Shown here piece after piece: positions 6,981 through 29,725 of a stretch of 35,248 nucleotides of DNA. The position numbers and the translations under genes were made by a program. How positions within the stretch are numbered: position 1 is the stretch's first letter; each line of letters starts with the position of its first letter. The notes under the pieces were generated by a model. The model was not told the origin of the DNA and made no database searches. It saw only the letters and a list, made by a program, of their open reading frames with translations. The stretch is from a bacterium. Lineage in GTDB: Bacteria > Bdellovibrionota_C > UBA2361 > OMII01. The stretch covers positions 1 through 35,248 of the forward strand of contig JAFMJG010000011.1 of NCBI GenBank assembly GCA_017853605.1, in the 5' to 3' direction.

Positions 6981-7014
6981 CTATTGTGTGAGGGTACGAG
7001 TCAGAACACAATAG
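6981..7014. promoter_or_regulatory. Perfect 9-bp inverted repeat, candidate operator
   Basis: CTATTGTGT (6981-6989) and ACACAATAG (7006-7014) are exact reverse complements separated by 16 bases, so arm centres are 25 bases apart. The repeat ends 23 bases before the preferred GTG start at 7038. AT-rich arms in a GC-rich region and the position just before a gene fit a dimeric repressor site. A stem with a 16-base loop in the mRNA leader is the alternative. Confidence 0.5.
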
Positions 7015-7037
7015 GGGCGCCAAATCCGGAAATATTT

Positions 7038-9287
7038 GTGATTCGACTTTTAGGTGACGATTCGCGCTTTCCCCAAGGCTCCGTGCCTACCGGAGAGGAC
7101 CAAACATTGCACCACGCCAGAGGCGTGATCCGCCAAACGGATGCATACCTCGCCTTCCCGCCATGCATCGACATGAAGGTGGTCGAGGGGCGTCGCGCAA
7201 CGATCGAGTCGATCCTGCACCACTTCATCGACGATGAGGGCCGCCCCTCCGGCGAGGTTCTCTCTCTCACGGTCAAGGGCGTTTCGCGCAGCGGCACGCC
7301 GGTGGTCCGCTACGATCTCCCAACCTCTATTGGCAGGGCTCTCGCGCAGAGCCTCGCCCGCGTTATCCTCTCTGCCGCAGGGCAAGGCGCCGCCAACAGC
7401 CCGGGGCAGCCCTCCTCAGAACAGCCACCTGCCGCGACAGGCTCAGGGGCCAAGAAGGCGGCTGACGACATCCTTCTCGATCTTCACCGTCGCATCTCTG
7501 CATATCCAGAGGTGGCATGGAAGGTTTCTCCGATGACTTCGCCCAGAAATGGGAAGGTCCCTGAATTCGGGGCCGCTTCGGCCTCTGCAGGGGCTCAGGA
7601 ACGCCAGCTGCCTGCCAGGCTGGATGGCGTGGAGCCACGGCACCGCGACCGATTCATGGAGCGCGTGGCTCCAGGGTTTGCGGAGTTTGCCCAGAGTCCA
7701 GCCTTTGCGCTCGATCGTCGCTGGGTGTCTGAACACCAGACGGCCAGCGGCTGGGCAAAGGTAGAGGGCACGATCCTTCTCGACCGGCAGAGGGTTGCGC
7801 TCGATGTTGAGGTCGTGGATGCGGAGGACGAGCTCGTTCTTGAGGACTCATTCGCAGTTCCGCTCCCGCCACGGGATGCCAGCCGCCCCCTGTCGCCAGA
7901 AGCCCTCCACATCGCGCTCGAAGACCTGGTGAACGGCGCGCTCCATGAGTTTAGGAGGTCCGGCGTTGAAGGGATGCGCGAGATGCTCTCTTCGCGAGGG
8001 CGCGAAAGGCAGCCGCAAGAGACCGAAGGTTCGGCTGCAAGAGGCCGTTCCCGTAGCCAGCAGAGCGCGGCGTCGGAATCCGACAGCAGGATCCTGGAGG
8101 GGGATCTCGCCGAGGGGACGACGACCTTCTTCCGCGCGCTGCCGTCCGGCGCCCAGATCCTGATCAACGCAGGCGAGAACGCCGCCGCCCTCATCGTGCG
8201 AGCCTCCAGCTCTGAGTTTTCGGCGGCGGTTGCGTGGCCCATCCGTGACGCCCAGGGGATTGATCGCCCAAACTCTACGGCCTTTCACGGTCTGCGCCGG
8301 GCGGCAGACCTCCTTGCAACAGGCAACCTGGAGCAGAGGCGCGCCGTGCTCACATTCCTGGAAAAGCTCACGAAGGACACGACTGGGCGGCCTCCGATCC
8401 GGTCCGGATGCTCCGTTGAGTCGCTCCTCGGTGCGGAGATGCTCGATGAGATGCGCTCGCTCTACCACATACAGGTGAGCAACCCAGCCGCGGAGCGGGA
8501 TGATGAGGTCATCGAGCTCATGAACGGCATCCAGTCGTTCAAGATCCACCTCAAGAACCCAGCGCTGCGGGGGAGCGCCCTCACGGGGTTCCCGGTGCTG
8601 CGGTTCGGGCTTTTTCCGGATGAGTCGCTCTATGTGCGCGCGAGCAATCCAGTGGGGGGGCAGCTCAAGGCGTTCATCTCCGCAGCGAGCTGCGGCAAGC
8701 TTGGCGGCTTCCAGGAGGTGGTGCGCTCTATCGCAGAGGAGCTAGGAGAGAGCCGCACACCGTCAGAGACCCGGGTGCGCGTGTACTCCGTGTTGGAGGA
8801 TATCTTTAAGCGCGACGTGATAAGCAACGCCCTGGTGTCGCCCTACAGCCGGATGGGCCGCATGGTGCCGCCACCCTCACGGCACCTTGCACAGCAGGCG
8901 TATGATCTGGGCGGCAAGGTAGCTCGCGTGTGGAGCGCAGGTGGCGTCCAGCAGCCGGGCGATGTCAAGGTAGAGTGGATCCGTGACACCGACCGCTGCC
9001 GCGTGTCGGTTGGCGAGCCTGGCGAACGGGGATCGTTCGTCGAGCTGGACATGAGCCACAAGGGGATCACCAAGATGGAGTTCTTCTTGGCCTATGGGGA
9101 GCAAGAGGACCAGGTTCAGCAGGCGCACGTGGAGCTGGACCTCGTTGCGGCGAAGGGGGAGCCGTCGGCCGACTTCGCCCAACTCTCGTCGCTCCTGTCA
9201 AAGCTGAGCGAGCTGATTGACTCGCGCCCCGCAAGCCTGCACGAGCTTGAGCGTTCAGCCCTCTTTCGCGCTATAACAACCCTCTAG
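7038..9287 (+). CDS. Large soluble protein of unknown function (749 aa)
   Basis: I do not recognise any family. The protein has no signal peptide or membrane segment and should be cytoplasmic. It divides into an N-terminal block (about 1-115, FVIRLLGDD to RVILSAAGQG), a low-complexity Gly/Ser/Pro linker (about 116-140), a middle block with DRRWVSEHQTASGW (about 195-310), a charged Arg/Gln/Ser linker near 325-360 (RGRERQPQETEG, RGRSRSQQS), and a long C-terminal region of mixed helix and strand ending in helices. The start is uncertain: GTG at 7038 has GGAAA five bases upstream and lies just after a perfect inverted repeat; a TTG at 6984 would add 18 residues but would put the repeat inside the gene. 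It lies upstream of dnaB in the same direction, 243 bases away. Coding character matches the neighbours. Confidence 0.7.
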   Translation: MIRLLGDDSRFPQGSVPTGEDQTLHHARGVIRQTDAYLAFPPCIDMKVVEGRRATIESILHHFIDDEGRPSGEVLSLTVKGVSRSGTPVVRYDLPTSIGRALAQSLARVILSAAGQGAANSPGQPSSEQPPAATGSGAKKAADDILLDLHRRISAYPEVAWKVSPMTSPRNGKVPEFGAASASAGAQERQLPARLDGVEPRHRDRFMERVAPGFAEFAQSPAFALDRRWVSEHQTASGWAKVEGTILLDRQRVALDVEVVDAEDELVLEDSFAVPLPPRDASRPLSPEALHIALEDLVNGALHEFRRSGVEGMREMLSSRGRERQPQETEGSAARGRSRSQQSAASESDSRILEGDLAEGTTTFFRALPSGAQILINAGENAAALIVRASSSEFSAAVAWPIRDAQGIDRPNSTAFHGLRRAADLLATGNLEQRRAVLTFLEKLTKDTTGRPPIRSGCSVESLLGAEMLDEMRSLYHIQVSNPAAERDDEVIELMNGIQSFKIHLKNPALRGSALTGFPVLRFGLFPDESLYVRASNPVGGQLKAFISAASCGKLGGFQEVVRSIAEELGESRTPSETRVRVYSVLEDIFKRDVISNALVSPYSRMGRMVPPPSRHLAQQAYDLGGKVARVWSAGGVQQPGDVKVEWIRDTDRCRVSVGEPGERGSFVELDMSHKGITKMEFFLAYGEQEDQVQQAHVELDLVAAKGEPSADFAQLSSLLSKLSELIDSRPASLHELERSALFRAITTL

Positions 9288-22411: not shown

Positions 22412-23761
22412 CTAGCGCTGCAGGATGTGCCGGGCTGAAGCCGCAACTCTCTCATATGGGACGGTAGAGAGGTACTCAAGGAGCTCACGAGCGCTTGCGG
22501 CCACCTCTGTGCACTCGGGCGTGAGGCCGCCGATAAGCACCACAAGGGCGTGCAGCACGTCGGGGTCCTGGCCCGGAGACGCGAGCTCAGCGCACCGTCC
22601 GACAAGCTCCCCCTGGAAGCGCTGCAGGGCGACAAACGGCTCAGTGACTGAGAGAACGATGGCCCTCCCCTCGCCCGCCCTCGCCACGAGGGATGCCAGC
22701 AGGGAGTCCAGGATCCTCATGCCGACGCCGTCGCGCACGTGGCCAAGGAGGATCACAAGGTTTGAGGCTGCGCCGTGCACCGTCGTTGCGTTCGGCGACC
22801 ACAGCATCTCTGAGAGGCGGTCGACCGCTGCCACAGGATCGCCATTGCGGGCCAGGTACACAGCGGTAAAATCCCGCGCCATCTGCAGGTCCGCGTCGTC
22901 GGAGAAGCGCAGGGTCTCTACCATCGGCGCCAGCTCTGCGGGCATCTCTGATGCCCGAACCAAGTGGAGGAACTCATGCTGGCGAACCGTCGTCTCTCGC
23001 TCAACATCAGCCGAGATGAAGCTCAGCCCTCCCCACAGCAGCTTCTGGCGCTCGCGCGCAAACGAGTCGGCGTACGCGGTAAGAACCTTTGCTGAAAAGC
23101 GGCGCACCGCAATGCCTGGCGAGCACAGCCCAACGAGGAGGTGCGCAAACTGCTCATCGCACAGCTCACGAGGGCCATCGGCGACGAGGCGCTTGAGAAG
23201 CTCCCGCTGTGCCCGCTCAGAGAGAGAGAGGTTCTCCTCAACAATCCGGCGGATGCGCTCGCTCTGCGCACCCTGAAAATCGAGGTAGGCTTCAACGCGC
23301 GCATCTCTCGCGCGCGCAGTGGTCTTCGCCAGGACATGCATCGGGATGATCGCCGCCTCTCCCAAGTCCCGCCCCTCCGCAAGCGCCCGCGCCGCATCGA
23401 CTGCGATCCCCGCCCGCTGATCCCACAACATGCGGAGGCACACCGGCGCACCGAGCCCTTGGCCATCCGGCACCTGACCAACAAACGACAGGAGCGACGA
23501 GACGGCCTCTGCATCGGGCTCCTTGGGGATACGGGCGAGCACCCGGGCAGGAATCGACGGAAACAGCCCGGCGCTGTTGGTTAGAAAGTCAGCTGACGCA
23601 CGCCGGACGGTGATTGAGGGATCCGCGAGAAAGGACACTGCGAGCTCCGCCCGCTGCTTCCAGCCCGCCCCGGCGAGCGCCGCCAGCGGACTCGAGGAGG
23701 CGCCCTCAATGCGGGGGGCCTTTTTTGGAAGAATGGGGTCCATTCCGGGATTGTGCAACAT
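22412..23761 (-). CDS. Helical-repeat (HEAT-like) protein of unknown function
   Basis: A 449-residue soluble protein with no signal peptide or membrane segment. It is almost wholly alpha-helical with paired helices at about 35-45 residue spacing, for example ELAVSFLADPSITVRRASADFL, LRMLWDQRAGIAVDAARALAEG and LVGLCSPGIAVRRFSAKVL; the recurring D/SPxxxVRRxSAxxL pattern is typical of HEAT/ARM-like repeats. Such proteins serve as protein-binding scaffolds. I recognise no catalytic motif. An in-frame ATG at 23743 would remove six residues; neither start has a good ribosome site. It is in the same direction as, and about 200 bases downstream of, the kinase-CHASE2 gene, so it might be expressed with it, but no direct link is shown. 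Confidence 0.72.
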   Translation of the reverse strand: MLHNPGMDPILPKKAPRIEGASSSPLAALAGAGWKQRAELAVSFLADPSITVRRASADFLTNSAGLFPSIPARVLARIPKEPDAEAVSSLLSFVGQVPDGQGLGAPVCLRMLWDQRAGIAVDAARALAEGRDLGEAAIIPMHVLAKTTARARDARVEAYLDFQGAQSERIRRIVEENLSLSERAQRELLKRLVADGPRELCDEQFAHLLVGLCSPGIAVRRFSAKVLTAYADSFARERQKLLWGGLSFISADVERETTVRQHEFLHLVRASEMPAELAPMVETLRFSDDADLQMARDFTAVYLARNGDPVAAVDRLSEMLWSPNATTVHGAASNLVILLGHVRDGVGMRILDSLLASLVARAGEGRAIVLSVTEPFVALQRFQGELVGRCAELASPGQDPDVLHALVVLIGGLTPECTEVAASARELLEYLSTVPYERVAASARHILQR

Positions 23762-23959: not shown

Positions 23960-26062
23960 TTACCTGCGCCGCCAACCTGAGGCTGCCGTCTGGGAGAAGA
24001 GGAGGCGCAGGAAGAGCCCCGAAAAGAGCCCCCACAGGATAGGGCACGCCAGCGGGACCAGCGCACCGAACAGGAAGAGGATGTACTGAAGCGCAAAAGC
24101 CCCCACCACAGCCAGGCAGAGGGACAAGACCGCTTTGGCGCCGGAGAGCGTCAGGATAAGGAACGCCATGCAGGCCGCCAATCCGAAGCAGACAGCGAGC
24201 CTACCGCTCCCCTGCACCTCCTCGACCCAGTCTCGGTTGAGTATGTTGGAGGTCGCAGTAGCGTGAATCTCCGTCCCGAACATGCCCTGGTCAAATGGGG
24301 TGACGAACGACTCCCGCTGGGAGGGGCCGGTGCGGCTCCGCAGCCCCAAGCCCACAAACACGATCTTTCCGGTGAACGTGCCGGCCGGGAGGCTCTTGGT
24401 GTCATCAACAACGAGCTGGTAGGGGACCGTGGGGATCGTGCGCGCATCCCCATAAAAGTTGATCAGGGAATTCCTGTCCGGCAGCTCCTTGTCTCCCTTC
24501 GGCGGCATCGCTCCAGCCTCCGCGAGTGATGGGACATCCGGGAAGAGATCGGATCGCTCAACATTAAACTGCCGCACTCGCCCAAATCGTTGAGGCAAGC
24601 CGACGAGCCCGATGCCAACTGCCGCATCCTCAAAAACAGCCGCCGGACGGATCAGCTCCTCAAGAAGGAAGGTCCCGTTGAGGGTCGCCTGCTGAGTGGT
24701 GCCCGACGCAGCCGCCAAAACAGTCGGCACCCTTTTCATCGCCGCCGCCAAGTCGGCATCCACCGACTGGTCGGCTGAGACATCGCTAAAAATGATGTCG
24801 AACACCACGCGCTTCGCCTTGTCGTCTGCCAGGCGAGTGAGGAGCTTTGTGTGAAGCTGCCGGGGCCAGGCTCCGGTCACTGGCACTCCAAGAGTCGAGT
24901 AGCTCGTCTCGTCCATCGAGATCACCATAACGTCCGGTGAAGGATCGCGCATACCGCGCAGCCTAAAGAGGTTGTCGCTCTGCGCAAACTCCATCCCGAC
25001 GAAGGTGTCAGTGGTGCTCAATGGCACCGAGAAGAGGGCCAACAGGGCCCCAAACATGAGCCGCGTGGTGAGGTGCCCCTGTGCAACGCGGCGATAGATG
25101 CGGGTGTGGAGCGGCGCATCATCGAGCAGCTTGTCGAGCGTAATCGTGTTGTTTATCAGGCCCGCCACGAGGCCTTCGTCGAGCTGCCGGGGAGCCTTGG
25201 CATCCAAGTTGGCAGCGAACGTCGGCAACGAGCGCATTCGAAGCTTTGGGTCGATCTCAAGCAGGCTGAGCAGGCCATGCGCCAGCCACTCTGGCACGTC
25301 GGGCCGCAACTCGCGCGGGTCCGGCGGCATCTCCTCAACCTTGCGCATGATAAGGCGCGCCGGCACGTCGTCATCGATCGGCGGCCGCCCTGTCAGGAGC
25401 TGGTACAGGATCGCGCCAATCGCGTAGTAATCGACCGCTATCGATGACTCTTCGCCAATCAGGGTCTCGGGGGCGAGGTAGGCGATAGTGCCCACGATCT
25501 CCCCAGACACGGCGGTCAGGTTTGACACGCCTCCGCGTGAAATGCCGAAGTCGGTGATCTTGAGGCTTCCCTGCTCCAGGATCATGATGTTCGCCGGCTT
25601 TATGTCGCGGTGGATAACCCCCACTGCGTGAACCGCCGATATTCCCCGCATGAGCTGCACTGCCACCCCGAGGACACCCTCGAGCGGCATAAGCTCAGAA
25701 GAAACGAGCGACTCTAGGGTACGGCCCGAGAGGTACTCCATGGTGTAGTAGAGGGTGTCGCCATCCTGGCCGAAGTCGAAGGTTCGCACCACGTTCTCGT
25801 GGTTAATCTTGTGGGTGAGGCGCACTTCCCGAAGAAAGCGGTGAACGAGATCCTCCTTGAACTGCCCCCCCTGCCGCAAAACCTTAATCGCAACATTGGT
25901 CTCGCCGAGCACGATGTCTTCGGCGAGGTACACCGACGCCATTCCGCCTGTCCCAAGCGGACGAAGGATCTTGTAACGGTTGGCGATGACGTGCCCTGCT
26001 GAGAGGAACTGATGTCCCTCCGTTCCGGCTGAAACCATACCCCTCTTTTTGGCGACACCCAT
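23960..26062 (-). CDS. Membrane Ser/Thr protein kinase with CHASE2 sensor domain
   Basis: A 700-residue inner-membrane receptor kinase. Residues about 27-290 are a complete Hanks-type kinase: Gly loop GTGGMASVY (37-45), Lys60 in VAIKVL, HRDIKPANIM (151-160), DFG (171-173), APE (197-199) and Asp211. A membrane helix follows (about 333-350), then a periplasmic CHASE2 domain (about 355-605; DVMVISMDETSYSTLG, RVVFDIIFSDVSAD, IVFVGLG, and the MFGTEIHATATSNIL block), then three helices at the C-terminus. In most CHASE2 proteins the output follows these three helices; here nothing follows and the output is the N-terminal kinase. All catalytic residues are intact. A start at 26038 (eight residues shorter) has AGAGGGG just before it and is an alternative. 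It is divergent from the FecR-TPR-barrel gene. Confidence 0.9.
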   Translation of the reverse strand: MGVAKKRGMVSAGTEGHQFLSAGHVIANRYKILRPLGTGGMASVYLAEDIVLGETNVAIKVLRQGGQFKEDLVHRFLREVRLTHKINHENVVRTFDFGQDGDTLYYTMEYLSGRTLESLVSSELMPLEGVLGVAVQLMRGISAVHAVGVIHRDIKPANIMILEQGSLKITDFGISRGGVSNLTAVSGEIVGTIAYLAPETLIGEESSIAVDYYAIGAILYQLLTGRPPIDDDVPARLIMRKVEEMPPDPRELRPDVPEWLAHGLLSLLEIDPKLRMRSLPTFAANLDAKAPRQLDEGLVAGLINNTITLDKLLDDAPLHTRIYRRVAQGHLTTRLMFGALLALFSVPLSTTDTFVGMEFAQSDNLFRLRGMRDPSPDVMVISMDETSYSTLGVPVTGAWPRQLHTKLLTRLADDKAKRVVFDIIFSDVSADQSVDADLAAAMKRVPTVLAAASGTTQQATLNGTFLLEELIRPAAVFEDAAVGIGLVGLPQRFGRVRQFNVERSDLFPDVPSLAEAGAMPPKGDKELPDRNSLINFYGDARTIPTVPYQLVVDDTKSLPAGTFTGKIVFVGLGLRSRTGPSQRESFVTPFDQGMFGTEIHATATSNILNRDWVEEVQGSGRLAVCFGLAACMAFLILTLSGAKAVLSLCLAVVGAFALQYILFLFGALVPLACPILWGLFSGLFLRLLFSQTAASGWRRR

Positions 26063-26200
26063 GGGTTACACGCGTGCGTACAGGACTAGTCGGCAGGAGC
26101 AGGAAAAAAACTTAGTTCGTCTCACACAAATTCTGATGCCGCATGGGGTGCTCACGCATCCTCATCTATGAGGGAATTGTACGCGCTGGAGGCTAAGCGT
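26063..26200. promoter_or_regulatory. Shared divergent region of kinase and FecR-barrel genes
   Basis: About 138 bases separate the kinase start from the preferred start of the FecR-TPR-barrel gene. Both promoters must lie here, so joint control is plausible. It contains an A7 run (26103-26109) but no clear palindrome or -35/-10 pair that I would defend. Confidence 0.4.
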
Positions 26201-29200
26201 TTGAACTTCCTAAGCCGTCGGATAATCCAGGTTGCCATCCTGCCTGTCTTGGCCGTCCAGCTCCTGCGGCCGTGCCCCGCCCTCGCCGAGCCCCAAGGGG
26301 TTGCCAGCCTGTATGCCGCCGAGGGGGATGTCGCGGTGCGCAGGGCAGGAAGCCAGGACTGGGGGGGCACCAAGACCGGAGACCAGTTCCGGGAGGGAGA
26401 CACGATCCGTACAGGAACCGACGGGAAAGCCGCCCTCCAGTTTGTTGATGGGGCGCTCGTTCGCCTGGGCCGCTTCTCTGCCCTAACGTTTGAAAAGGTC
26501 TCGCCTGCCGGAAACCCGGCAGTCACCCACACCGAGGGCAAGGCCTACTTCTTCTCGCGCGGGGCGCGGCGTGAGCCTGAGATCCGCACTAAGAACGTCA
26601 ACGCAGCGATCTTCGGCACAGAGCTGGTAGTAGAGACCTCAGCTGCTGAAACGACGATTGATGTCCTGCACGGAACGGTAAATGCCTTCAACGCCAAGGG
26701 CTCTGTTTCGCTGTCACCGGGAGAGCGGGCAACGGCGCTCGCTGGAGAAGCCCCAACCAAGTCCATCCTTGTCCGGCCGGCAGAGTCCGTCCAGTGGATG
26801 GTAAACTTCCCAATGCTCCTCGTGGAGAGCGACTTTATCGCTTCGCCTGATCCTGGCTGCCCTGCATCATGCGCTTTGGCCGTGCGGCAGGCGCTGAATG
26901 AGTCCGCAAATGGGCGCTCGCTGCTTGAGGCGCTGCAGGGGGGCGGCCGCGCTCTCGAGGGAACGCAGCGCGGCGCGATCCTCAGGGCTATAGGTCTCTG
27001 GCGTGCGGGAGCTCCGGCTGCAGCGGAGGCAACTCTCGGCTCCCTCCAGGGGGGCGGCAGCCCAACTGACAACGCCCTGCGCGAGCTCGTCGCTGGCTTC
27101 ACCGCCCTGGTTCGCGGGAACACCAACGGCGCGAATGAGCGCCTACAAGCCGCCGTGGCCTACCGCCCAGGGCTGGCAAACGAGCAGCTGCTCAAGTCCT
27201 ATGTCCTGCAGTCTCGCGGAGACCTCGAGGGTGCGCTGGCCGCAATTTCGCTAGCGCGCCAAGAGCACCCAAAGCTGCCGGCGCTGTACGACAGGGAGGC
27301 CGAGCTGCTCCTCTCGTTCAACCGCTACGATGACGCCACTGCCCTCCTCGCGGATCGCCAGCGGGAGTTTGGCCACAGCGCCATGAACTCGGTGCTGGCG
27401 GGCTTTGCCGCGCTTGCCCGCCATGAGTTTGCCGAGGCAGAGGCCGACTTCACCCTTGCACAGCGCGAGGATCCATCGCAGTCGCTCGCCTACCTTGGCC
27501 AGGCCCTCGTGAAGGTAAACGACCAGGACTATGCGGCAACAAAGGAGCTCCTTTCAAAGGCCGTCCAGCTGGATCCCGCTGTGTCATCCTACCGCTCCTA
27601 CCTCGGCAAGCTGTTTTTTGATGACGAGCACTCTGACAAGGCTCGGCAAGAGTACAACGCTGCCATCGAGCTGGACGAGAACGATCCAACCCCCTTCCTC
27701 TACCGCTCGTACGTCGACGTCGCCCAGAACGACGTGATTGGCGGCCTCGCCGACGTTGAGCAGTCGATTAAGCTCAACAACAACCGTGCCGTGTACCGTT
27801 CCTCGCTGATGCTTGACAGGGACCTCGCCGTGCGCGGGGCCGGGCTCTCGCGCGTCTTTACCGAGCTAGGGTTCGACCAGATCGCGCGGGTCGAGGCGGT
27901 CAAGTCTATCAGCGACGACTACAGCAACTTCTCTGCGCACCGCCTGCTGTCTGATGCGTACGAGTCTATCATCGATGTGGATGCGAGAGTCTCGGAGGAT
28001 CGGATTGCAAACCTCCTCTCTCCGCTCAGCTTCAACATCTTCAACAGCATCGGCGAGTCAGTGGCGCTGGGCGACTACAACGCCCTCTTTGACAAGAAGG
28101 AGAACCGGGAGGCCGTATCAGCCCGCTGGGTAAGCAACCAGAACCAGGTGGGCGCCCAGCTCCTCACCACCGGAAAGACTGACACGTTTGGATGGCTCTT
28201 TAGGTACCAGCCCTTCTACCTGAACACATCCCAGAACAACGCCCACCAGGCAGAGAACCGCATTAGGGGGGCAATTCAGTACGAGGTGACCCCCGACGAC
28301 CGCCTGGTGCTTGAGGGCAACTTCAACTCGTACGGCGACAGGTCGTCCGACTCGATACCGACCTCTGCGGGCCCCGTTGAGCTATCGGACTCCTCCGACG
28401 TGAAGCTCGGAAACGTGCTGCTGGGCTACAACCACAGGTTTTCGGCCCAGACAACCCTGCTCGTGCAGGGCGAGTACGCGCGTGACAGCTCCAAGACCTC
28501 GGTCACAAACGACAACCGCCAGAACTTCCTTTCGCTTCCTTCAGCGCCGGAGGACTACTACCCGAGCGTGCTAAGCCTGCAGCAAGGGGCCAATGAGGTC
28601 ACGAACCGCGGCGGCCTCTCGGCGCAGGTTATCTACGCATCGAAGTACGTGGACTCAGTCAGCGGCGCACAGGGTCTCTACGTCGATCCCAACCGCCAAG
28701 AGAGCTCCCCCCTCTACGCGCTCGACGCCTGTGGCGCCTTTGAGCCCCCATGCGCTGGGGGCGTGAACGGCCTGATCTCCACCAGCGCCTCAACCAGCCT
28801 AACCTCTGGAACGGCGTACGAGTACCTGTCGCTCAAGATACCCCAGCGGGCTAACCTTACGCTCGGCTTGGCAGCCACCTCCGTGCAGTACGATCTGACC
28901 GAGGTCCCCCCCTTCCTCTCAGGGCGCGGCAGGGAGAGCAAGCTCGACCCAAAGATCGGCCTCCTCACCACGCCGACCTCGTGGCTCACAACTCGCGCTG
29001 CCTACTTCGAGACGCTCGGAAAGTCGGTGCTTGAGGACCAAAGCTCCCTTGAGCCAACGCTCGTCGGCGGCCTCAACCAGGACTTCAACGACCTGCCGGG
29101 TGCCGAGAGCCGCAACTATGCCTTCGGCCTAGACGCGAAGCTCCCCAACGTAGTGTACGCCGGCGCCCAGTACACCCACCGCAACATCCGCGAGCCCCTT

Positions 29201-29725
29201 GGGGATGTCTCGCAGCTCACCCTTCTCGATGGCGACAACCTCTCCCTCACGCGCCTCTACAACGGCGGCTTCCTTAACTCCGATTCGGAATCGCAGCTCC
29301 TGCGAAGCTACATTTATGGCGTGCTAACCGAGTCAACCGTGCTCACCGCAGACTCACTGATAAACTGGTACAACCTGACCGACCCAGGCGAGAGTCCGGG
29401 ATATATTGACACTCGGCGCTTGCGCCTCGGCGCGCGACAGTACTGGGGCAAGCACCTCTCCTTTACGGCCCAAGGCACCTACCGAAACCAGGACACCGCC
29501 GGCATCCAGAGCGCGCTTGTGCCCGGAGACCTGAGCGCCGGTGGCGGCTTCTGGCTCTTTGATGCCGCCGTCTCCTACCGCTTTCCTGAACAGCACGGAA
29601 ACCTGTTCTTCCGCGTTGACAACGTTCTCAACAGGTCATTTGAGTACGACCAGTCCCCCGGCATTGAGCCCCTCCTGCTAGAGGGGCGCTCCTTTATCCT
29701 GGGGGTTAACTACAACTTCTTCTAG
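26201..29725 (+). CDS. FecR-TPR-outer-membrane beta-barrel protein
   Basis: A protein of 1,174 residues with a signal peptide (cleavage after PALA) and three parts. A FecR domain (about 35-185) contains EGDVAVRRAG, GDTIRTGTDGKAALQF, IRTKNVNAAIFGTELVV and SLSPGERATA. TPR-like helical repeats follow (about 215-560; for example LAYLGQALVKVNDQDYAAT). From about 625 to the end is a beta-barrel of alternating strands with Asn/Asp-rich loops, closing with FFRVDNVLNRSFEYDQ and RSFILGVNYNFF, the end pattern of TonB-dependent receptors with a final Phe. No plug domain or TonB box is seen. A TTG at 26201 is preferred as start: GGAGG lies eight bases upstream and it gives a normal signal peptide; an ATG at 26168 has no ribosome site. 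Substrate and function are unknown; periplasmic FecR parts are known to relay signals in FecA-type systems. Confidence 0.85.
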   Translation: MNFLSRRIIQVAILPVLAVQLLRPCPALAEPQGVASLYAAEGDVAVRRAGSQDWGGTKTGDQFREGDTIRTGTDGKAALQFVDGALVRLGRFSALTFEKVSPAGNPAVTHTEGKAYFFSRGARREPEIRTKNVNAAIFGTELVVETSAAETTIDVLHGTVNAFNAKGSVSLSPGERATALAGEAPTKSILVRPAESVQWMVNFPMLLVESDFIASPDPGCPASCALAVRQALNESANGRSLLEALQGGGRALEGTQRGAILRAIGLWRAGAPAAAEATLGSLQGGGSPTDNALRELVAGFTALVRGNTNGANERLQAAVAYRPGLANEQLLKSYVLQSRGDLEGALAAISLARQEHPKLPALYDREAELLLSFNRYDDATALLADRQREFGHSAMNSVLAGFAALARHEFAEAEADFTLAQREDPSQSLAYLGQALVKVNDQDYAATKELLSKAVQLDPAVSSYRSYLGKLFFDDEHSDKARQEYNAAIELDENDPTPFLYRSYVDVAQNDVIGGLADVEQSIKLNNNRAVYRSSLMLDRDLAVRGAGLSRVFTELGFDQIARVEAVKSISDDYSNFSAHRLLSDAYESIIDVDARVSEDRIANLLSPLSFNIFNSIGESVALGDYNALFDKKENREAVSARWVSNQNQVGAQLLTTGKTDTFGWLFRYQPFYLNTSQNNAHQAENRIRGAIQYEVTPDDRLVLEGNFNSYGDRSSDSIPTSAGPVELSDSSDVKLGNVLLGYNHRFSAQTTLLVQGEYARDSSKTSVTNDNRQNFLSLPSAPEDYYPSVLSLQQGANEVTNRGGLSAQVIYASKYVDSVSGAQGLYVDPNRQESSPLYALDACGAFEPPCAGGVNGLISTSASTSLTSGTAYEYLSLKIPQRANLTLGLAATSVQYDLTEVPPFLSGRGRESKLDPKIGLLTTPTSWLTTRAAYFETLGKSVLEDQSSLEPTLVGGLNQDFNDLPGAESRNYAFGLDAKLPNVVYAGAQYTHRNIREPLGDVSQLTLLDGDNLSLTRLYNGGFLNSDSESQLLRSYIYGVLTESTVLTADSLINWYNLTDPGESPGYIDTRRLRLGARQYWGKHLSFTAQGTYRNQDTAGIQSALVPGDLSAGGGFWLFDAAVSYRFPEQHGNLFFRVDNVLNRSFEYDQSPGIEPLLLEGRSFILGVNYNFF

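Follow-up and report, generated by a model that had tools for sequence, protein, structure and literature searches.

A probable NsrA-type outer-membrane signalling receptor encoded beside a CHASE2 Ser/Thr kinase in a bacterium of the Bdellovibrionota_C

In S. meliloti the outer-membrane receptor NsrA, together with the CHASE2 cyclases CyaK and CyaD1/D2, is reported to be needed for plant-signal cyclic AMP signalling, and the ribosomal protein uL2 is a candidate for one of these plant signals (PMC7529298, PMC13001267; excerpts of both, as for all papers cited here). Here we analyse a stretch of 35,248 nucleotides (the window; assembly GCA_017853605.1, contig JAFMJG010000011.1) in which the gene for a FecR-TPR-barrel outer-membrane protein of 1185 amino acids (26168..29725, plus strand) lies divergent to the gene for a Ser/Thr kinase-CHASE2 membrane protein. 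The window receptor is quite likely a signalling receptor of the NsrA type that acts via CHASE2 on the divergent kinase; judged by the tested features, it is not a plug-bearing TonB-dependent transporter, nor is it an anti-sigma factor. What is new is an NsrA/CyaK-like system whose output is a kinase, the cyclase being the one feature of NsrA/CyaK that was not found.

Other published systems share parts of this arrangement. In Campylobacterota, CHASE2 cyclases are clustered with a FecR-domain outer-membrane protein, similar to the grouping in the window; however, that cluster, as listed in the excerpt, has the TPR protein as a separate gene, contains a phosphodiesterase and has a cyclase output (PMC9239204). 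A Burkholderia biofilm operon likewise pairs a FecR domain with CHASE2, in the form of a LysM-FecR protein and a CHASE2 histidine kinase, but the excerpt describes the LysM protein as periplasmic, includes no barrel and gives a histidine kinase with a response regulator as output (PMC5192318). Ser/Thr kinases joined to CHASE2, the same joining as in the window, have been listed for cyanobacteria, and the available part of that paper names no outer-membrane partner or FecR (PMC2176072). Among the matches listed from the open-licence literature, none showed a CHASE2 Ser/Thr kinase with an outer-membrane protein as its partner, as far as their titles, abstract openings and excerpts go.

A receptor-type barrel with FecR and TPR parts

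A 1192-amino-acid FecR-TPR protein followed by a CHASE2-cyclase is encoded in S. meliloti LMB1 on a plasmid of 1.82 Mb (L029:7944-11519). We take this to be the nsrA-cyaK locus because of the species, the gene order and the size; the record is unannotated, and the locus names are those of the literature. The profile of the window family aligned to the L029 protein with an hhalign probability of 99.9 and an expect value (E) of 3.2e-33 over 999 columns (23-1125 against 20-1176), with the confidence read as far as the early barrel, and the receptor profile also matches at 953-1070 and 1119-1196. As in NsrA/CyaK, the window receptor has FecR, TPR and a C-terminal barrel region, a similar length and an adjacent CHASE2 inner-membrane enzyme. 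In contrast, the output in the window is an N-terminal Ser/Thr kinase rather than the C-terminal cyclase of CyaK, and the two genes are divergent instead of tandem.

The open reading frame (ORF) of the receptor has a start that is uncertain by 11 codons, ATG 26168 or the in-frame TTG 26201. It opens with an export signal at residues ~1-41 (26168..26290), judged by eye from the sequence and without a signal-peptide program, with cleavage near the junction of ALA and EP and a helix at 6-33 in the model. The FecR domain follows at residues ~42-200 (26291..26767): the Pfam family PF04773 matches at 78-171 with an E of 1.9e-13, above its cut-off, and this part resembles the FecR-type signalling domain of PupR (6ovk) with a Z of 18.0, a root-mean-square deviation (rmsd) of 2.1 and 136 aligned residues in VIA-align. 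An AlphaFold2 model built on 48 aligned sequences (mean predicted local distance difference test, pLDDT, 87.0; predicted template modelling score, pTM, 0.83) is laid out as a beta-rich part at 46-200, helices at 204-617, a linker of 28 residues and a barrel at 646-1184.

The helices correspond to a TPR superhelix (residues 204-617, 26777..28018) identified by TPR profiles, the model and VIA-align. Each Pfam TPR model stays below its cut-off in the window receptor (best E 5e-4), and the TPR family TIGR02917 matches with an E of 3.4e-16, yet far under its whole-protein cut-off; FecR and TPR models match all 21 aligned sequences, the window receptor included (E <= 0.01). The structural likeness to Tom70/Tom71 has a Z of about 17.6, a high value of the sort common for repeats. 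Since TPR and a barrel in a single chain are also found in polymer exporters such as PgaA or BcsC, and weak NCBIfam matches to PgaA (E 0.0063) and BcsC (E 0.018) were obtained, an exporter was considered. These matches are confined to the TPR part, all 21 aligned sequences have the FecR domain, the barrel matches those of TonB receptors, and the 20 window proteins scanned include no polymer synthase; we thus rejected the exporter as highly unlikely.

The most conserved stretch of the chain lies late in the superhelix at residues ~538-557 (27779..27838), where the pLDDT drops to ~61-63. Other highly conserved stretches are 466-515 and, in FecR, the surroundings of 136-150. A conserved linker (residues 618-645, 28019..28102; 627-640 at a pLDDT < 50) precedes the first strand.

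The remainder of the protein, residues 646-1185 with the end NYNFF (28103..29722), is modelled as a TonB-receptor-type beta-barrel, which is predicted to sit in the outer membrane. The best Foldseek matches of the receptor model are TonB-dependent receptors (E about 1e-14), and VIA-align gave its highest Z, 20.4, against 5fp2 (405 aligned, rmsd 2.9). DSSP assigns 23 strand elements from residue 646 onward; from the placement of the turns we count 863-875 and 878-891 as one, which suggests a barrel of 22 strands. The barrel family PF00593 matches 11 of the 21 aligned sequences at E <= 0.01, the window receptor not being among the 11, and no Pfam barrel match was found in the window receptor itself.

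PirA, BauA and FecA, all TonB-dependent receptors, share the barrel fold, but the window receptor has FecR and TPR in place of a detected plug. There is no Plug (PF07715) match in it at E <= 0.1, Plug is not among the matches listed (the best 25 of 29 families) for the 21 aligned sequences, and the two Plug matches in the whole genome are on other contigs (C117 and C136). Just 28 residues separate the last long TPR-type helix from the first strand in the model, and therefore there is no room for a canonical plug, which was rejected. By eye no TonB box was seen at the mature N-terminus, and no search was aimed at one. A TonB-dependent transporter with a plug too divergent to be recognised, and with FecR and TPR as an additional N-terminal extension, would agree with the barrel fold. 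It would also agree with the structural alignments to TonB receptors, which begin ahead of the first strand at about model residue 508-585 (end points only), so that part of this stretch may lie at the periplasmic opening of the barrel or inside it, part of 555-645 being the candidate for entering the lumen. Given that no Plug profile matches, that 28 residues are left before the first strand and that FecR and TPR account for the rest, we regard such a transporter as very unlikely.

An earlier note on this DNA, made from the sequence alone, had proposed an outer-membrane barrel with TonB-receptor-like closing strands in which FecR and TPR replace the plug. This is borne out: the FecR profile lies above its cut-off, TPR is supported across the family, Plug does not match, the C-terminal part folds as a receptor-type barrel (Foldseek E about 1e-14, Z up to 20.4) with 22 strands as read and no space for a canonical plug, and neither a confident plug nor a C-terminus of another fold appeared.

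The same note had suggested that a receptor and an anti-sigma-like regulator are merged in one chain, of which the first half stands, as the chain does join a barrel of the receptor type to a FecR signalling module. The anti-sigma half does not, and with it falls cell-surface signalling of the FecA/FecR kind, in which the FecR part would control a sigma factor. The FecR-type fold shared with PupR and the TonB-receptor-like barrel would suit such signalling, but Pfam revealed no anti-sigma domain (E <= 0.1), FecR comes straight after the export signal, and neither the model nor inspection shows an apparent transmembrane helix between FecR and the barrel. Sigma70_r2 has 15 matches in the genome, none of them on the contig of the window (C192) or of its paralogue (C104), and the neighbour is a CHASE2 enzyme. 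We consider sigma factor control extremely unlikely and have rejected it. By analogy to NsrA/CyaK, the divergent CHASE2 kinase is the better partner.

CHASE2 partners of the receptor family

The own genome has three CHASE2 matches and two FecR-TPR-barrel receptors, each of which adjoins a CHASE2 gene; the second receptor (L009) adjoins a CHASE2 cyclase. The third CHASE2 protein, with a cyclase-type match (L091, G000:C105, 6199-8346), has no FecR-TPR barrel ORF in 16 kb. Across 37 related genomes, 0 to 5 CHASE2 matches were found per genome, and 27 of the 37 (own included) have a receptor match at E <= 0.001, the weakest covering the TPR part only. Searches at class and phylum level used the same 45 genomes and added little beyond one class. 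A scan of species genomes yielded 54 receptor loci in records labelled, in their own terms, Deltaproteobacteria, Bdellovibrionales, Methylococcaceae, Verrucomicrobia, Acidobacteria, Desulfobacteraceae and others.

Of 51 named loci, defined as a receptor ORF matched over > 300 residues, 27 have a CHASE2 ORF no more than 600 bp from the receptor gene, and a further 6 have one at a distance of 1.8-4.2 kb. Such linked pairs turn up repeatedly, in many lineages and with the genes in either orientation. The CHASE2 gene of the receptors labelled Methylococcaceae (L051, L053, L057 and L058) is 1.9-4.2 kb away on the opposite strand. We selected 31 mostly full-length, non-repeated partners, some of them up to 4.2 kb from the receptor. 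All have CHASE2 (31/31), combined with Guanylate_cyc in 27 and with Pkinase in 4, and these 4 come from the genus of the window. One further receptor of the family (L038:6277-9741) is divergent to a CHASE-PAS hybrid histidine kinase, which has CHASE and not CHASE2 and could be a third type of output.

On the receptor tree the kinase-linked receptors (window, L031, L032, whose kinase is cut by the contig end, L011 and L033) form one clade with a support of 1.00. Their sister group, with a support of 0.91, consists of the cyclase-linked receptors of the same genus, and the more distant receptors with a known partner are cyclase-linked. The simplest reading is that the cyclase was exchanged for a kinase within the genus of the window. 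The cyclases carry CHASE2 at the N-terminus, the kinases of this genus at the C-terminus; the kinase was therefore attached at the other end of CHASE2. The distances in the receptor and CHASE2 trees correlate with an r of 0.80 over 30 pairs, the largest of 2000 permutations reaching 0.26; this value includes shared species history.

The divergent kinase and its surroundings

The divergent neighbour encodes a protein of 700 amino acids (23960..26062, minus strand) with matches to PF00069 (E 3.8e-46) and PF05226 (E 1e-31). Its kinase domain (residues 30-276, 25235..25975) shows VAIK, HRDxKxxN, DFG and APE motifs by eye. A first membrane helix, also by eye, is near residues 331-349; CHASE2, identified by profile and model, occupies residues 349-616 (24215..25018) and should be periplasmic according to the deduced topology. 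Three C-terminal helices of the model (618-638, 641-664 and 672-689; 23996..24211) are hydrophobic by eye and are taken as membrane helices. A Foldseek search with the kinase-CHASE2 model found no structure at E <= 0.001. The list is headed by PknB-type kinases (E 1.7e-3 and higher); no CHASE2 relative is evident in its rows, which says nothing on novelty.

Receptor and kinase genes are separated by 105 bp (26063..26167, from the ORF limits). The promoter scan of 25900-26300 had a single match, on the minus strand at 26205-26176 (0.1 expected in shuffles), which is upstream of the kinase and within the first codons of the receptor. Downstream of the kinase on the same strand is a gene for 449 amino acids (22412..23761), possibly an accessory. 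It retains its position in genomes of the same genus and evolves fast (it is 38% identical to its L010 copy and, over part of the length, 27% identical to L012); the L010 copy matches HEAT_2, the window copy has no Pfam match. The pair is surrounded by housekeeping genes (argC, argB, yebC, dapF, an RNA methyltransferase, 6-phosphogluconate dehydrogenase and others), and a 767-amino-acid ORF elsewhere in the window (6984-9287) has no Pfam match at E <= 0.001.

Kinase-CHASE2 genes of the genus are often followed by a gene for a secreted protein of the FG-GAP type (integrin-like repeat), possibly a further signal-binding part (L086:9765-11519, L088:4412-6199, L087:2686-3630, L011:10240-12001 and L089:1-982). 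Pfam FG-GAP matches L088 (E 1.3e-10) and L086 (E 0.003, below the cut-off); the others were assigned by eye.

A proposed relay across two membranes

The domains, the modelled fold, the homology to NsrA, the gene linkage to CHASE2 and the swap of cyclase and kinase on the tree were computed, and by analogy to NsrA/CyaK the window receptor probably controls the divergent membrane kinase. In the relay that we propose, the TonB-receptor-type barrel would be exposed at the cell surface, with the FecR and TPR periplasmic arm standing in for the plug and extending toward the inner membrane, where it would touch CHASE2 in the product of the divergent kinase gene. A ligand, perhaps a macromolecule or a peptide, would bind the outer loops and alter the arm and hence the CHASE2 domain, and this change might activate or silence the Ser/Thr kinase in the cytoplasm. 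Most relatives whose partner is known pair this receptor with a CHASE2 adenylate/guanylate cyclase; in the genus of the window CHASE2 appears joined to a kinase instead.

FecR is a candidate for the contact with CHASE2, chiefly since FecR and CHASE2 are paired even without a barrel in the excerpted Burkholderia operon (PMC5192318). A second candidate contact might be residues 538-557, which are the most conserved and have a pLDDT of about 61-63, as would be expected for a partner-binding loop. We compared receptor domains with CHASE2 by tree distances over 28 pairs. The partial correlations were 0.43 for FecR (bootstrap 5-95%, 0.16-0.56), 0.42 for the barrel (0.11-0.64), 0.11 for the TPR cap and -0.12 for TPR; the rank correlations, 0.66 for the TPR cap, 0.65 for the barrel, 0.53 for FecR and 0.47 for TPR. 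These domain-wise values include species history.

Several points weigh against the relay. The domain-wise correlations are suggestive only and do not settle which part of the receptor faces CHASE2, and the ligand, the direction of signalling, the CHASE2 contact and the independence from TonB are what we infer. The window receptor shares little sequence identity with NsrA (26% over 515 FecR/TPR residues, barrel pieces at E 0.02 or worse), and in the model of the kinase-CHASE2 protein CHASE2 is mostly confident but the kinase domain is poorly modelled. No CHASE2 ORF was found in 18 of the 51 receptor loci, and 8 of these 18, flanked by 1 kb or more of sequence on either side, count to that extent as true exceptions. 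Behind several of the kinases lies an FG-GAP-type or HEAT-like gene, and thus the kinase may have other inputs.

Nine further kinase-type CHASE2 loci bear on whether kinase and barrel are merely neighbours, or whether the kinase controls production of the barrel. A piece of a receptor is beside the kinase in two (L087 and L092), three (L088, L093 and L097) end too close to the contig end for the presence of a receptor to be judged, and four have no receptor beside the kinase: L085, which belongs to another family, L086, L089 and L090. Like the window kinase, that of L090 (G004:C271, 3867-6065) lies between yebC and dapF, the very place of the window pair, with the receptor absent. However, many lineages show the linkage to CHASE2, in one orientation or the other, and for the cyclase version the excerpt of PMC7529298 gives genetic support from S. 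meliloti, so that we regard mere neighbourhood, or kinase control of the barrel, as unlikely and prefer the relay from receptor to kinase.

Whether the family represents a general TonB-independent chassis for signalling across the envelope, in which a plugless receptor barrel with a FecR/TPR arm acts on CHASE2 with interchangeable outputs (cyclase, Ser/Thr kinase and perhaps histidine kinase), seems to us evenly balanced.

Of the ways in which Gram-negative bacteria carry a surface signal over both membranes, the best known runs via TonB, FecR and a sigma factor, and a plugless barrel with a CHASE2 enzyme would be a second route. NsrA/CyaK is the one studied example of a barrel-to-CHASE2 route that we found. 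The locus described here suggests that many lineages use this route and that a Ser/Thr kinase can replace its output enzyme, and it offers a second, independent system in which the contact between receptor arm and CHASE2 can be located. If the proposed relay is true, the outer-membrane receptor of the window would directly drive a eukaryotic-like kinase from outside the cell.

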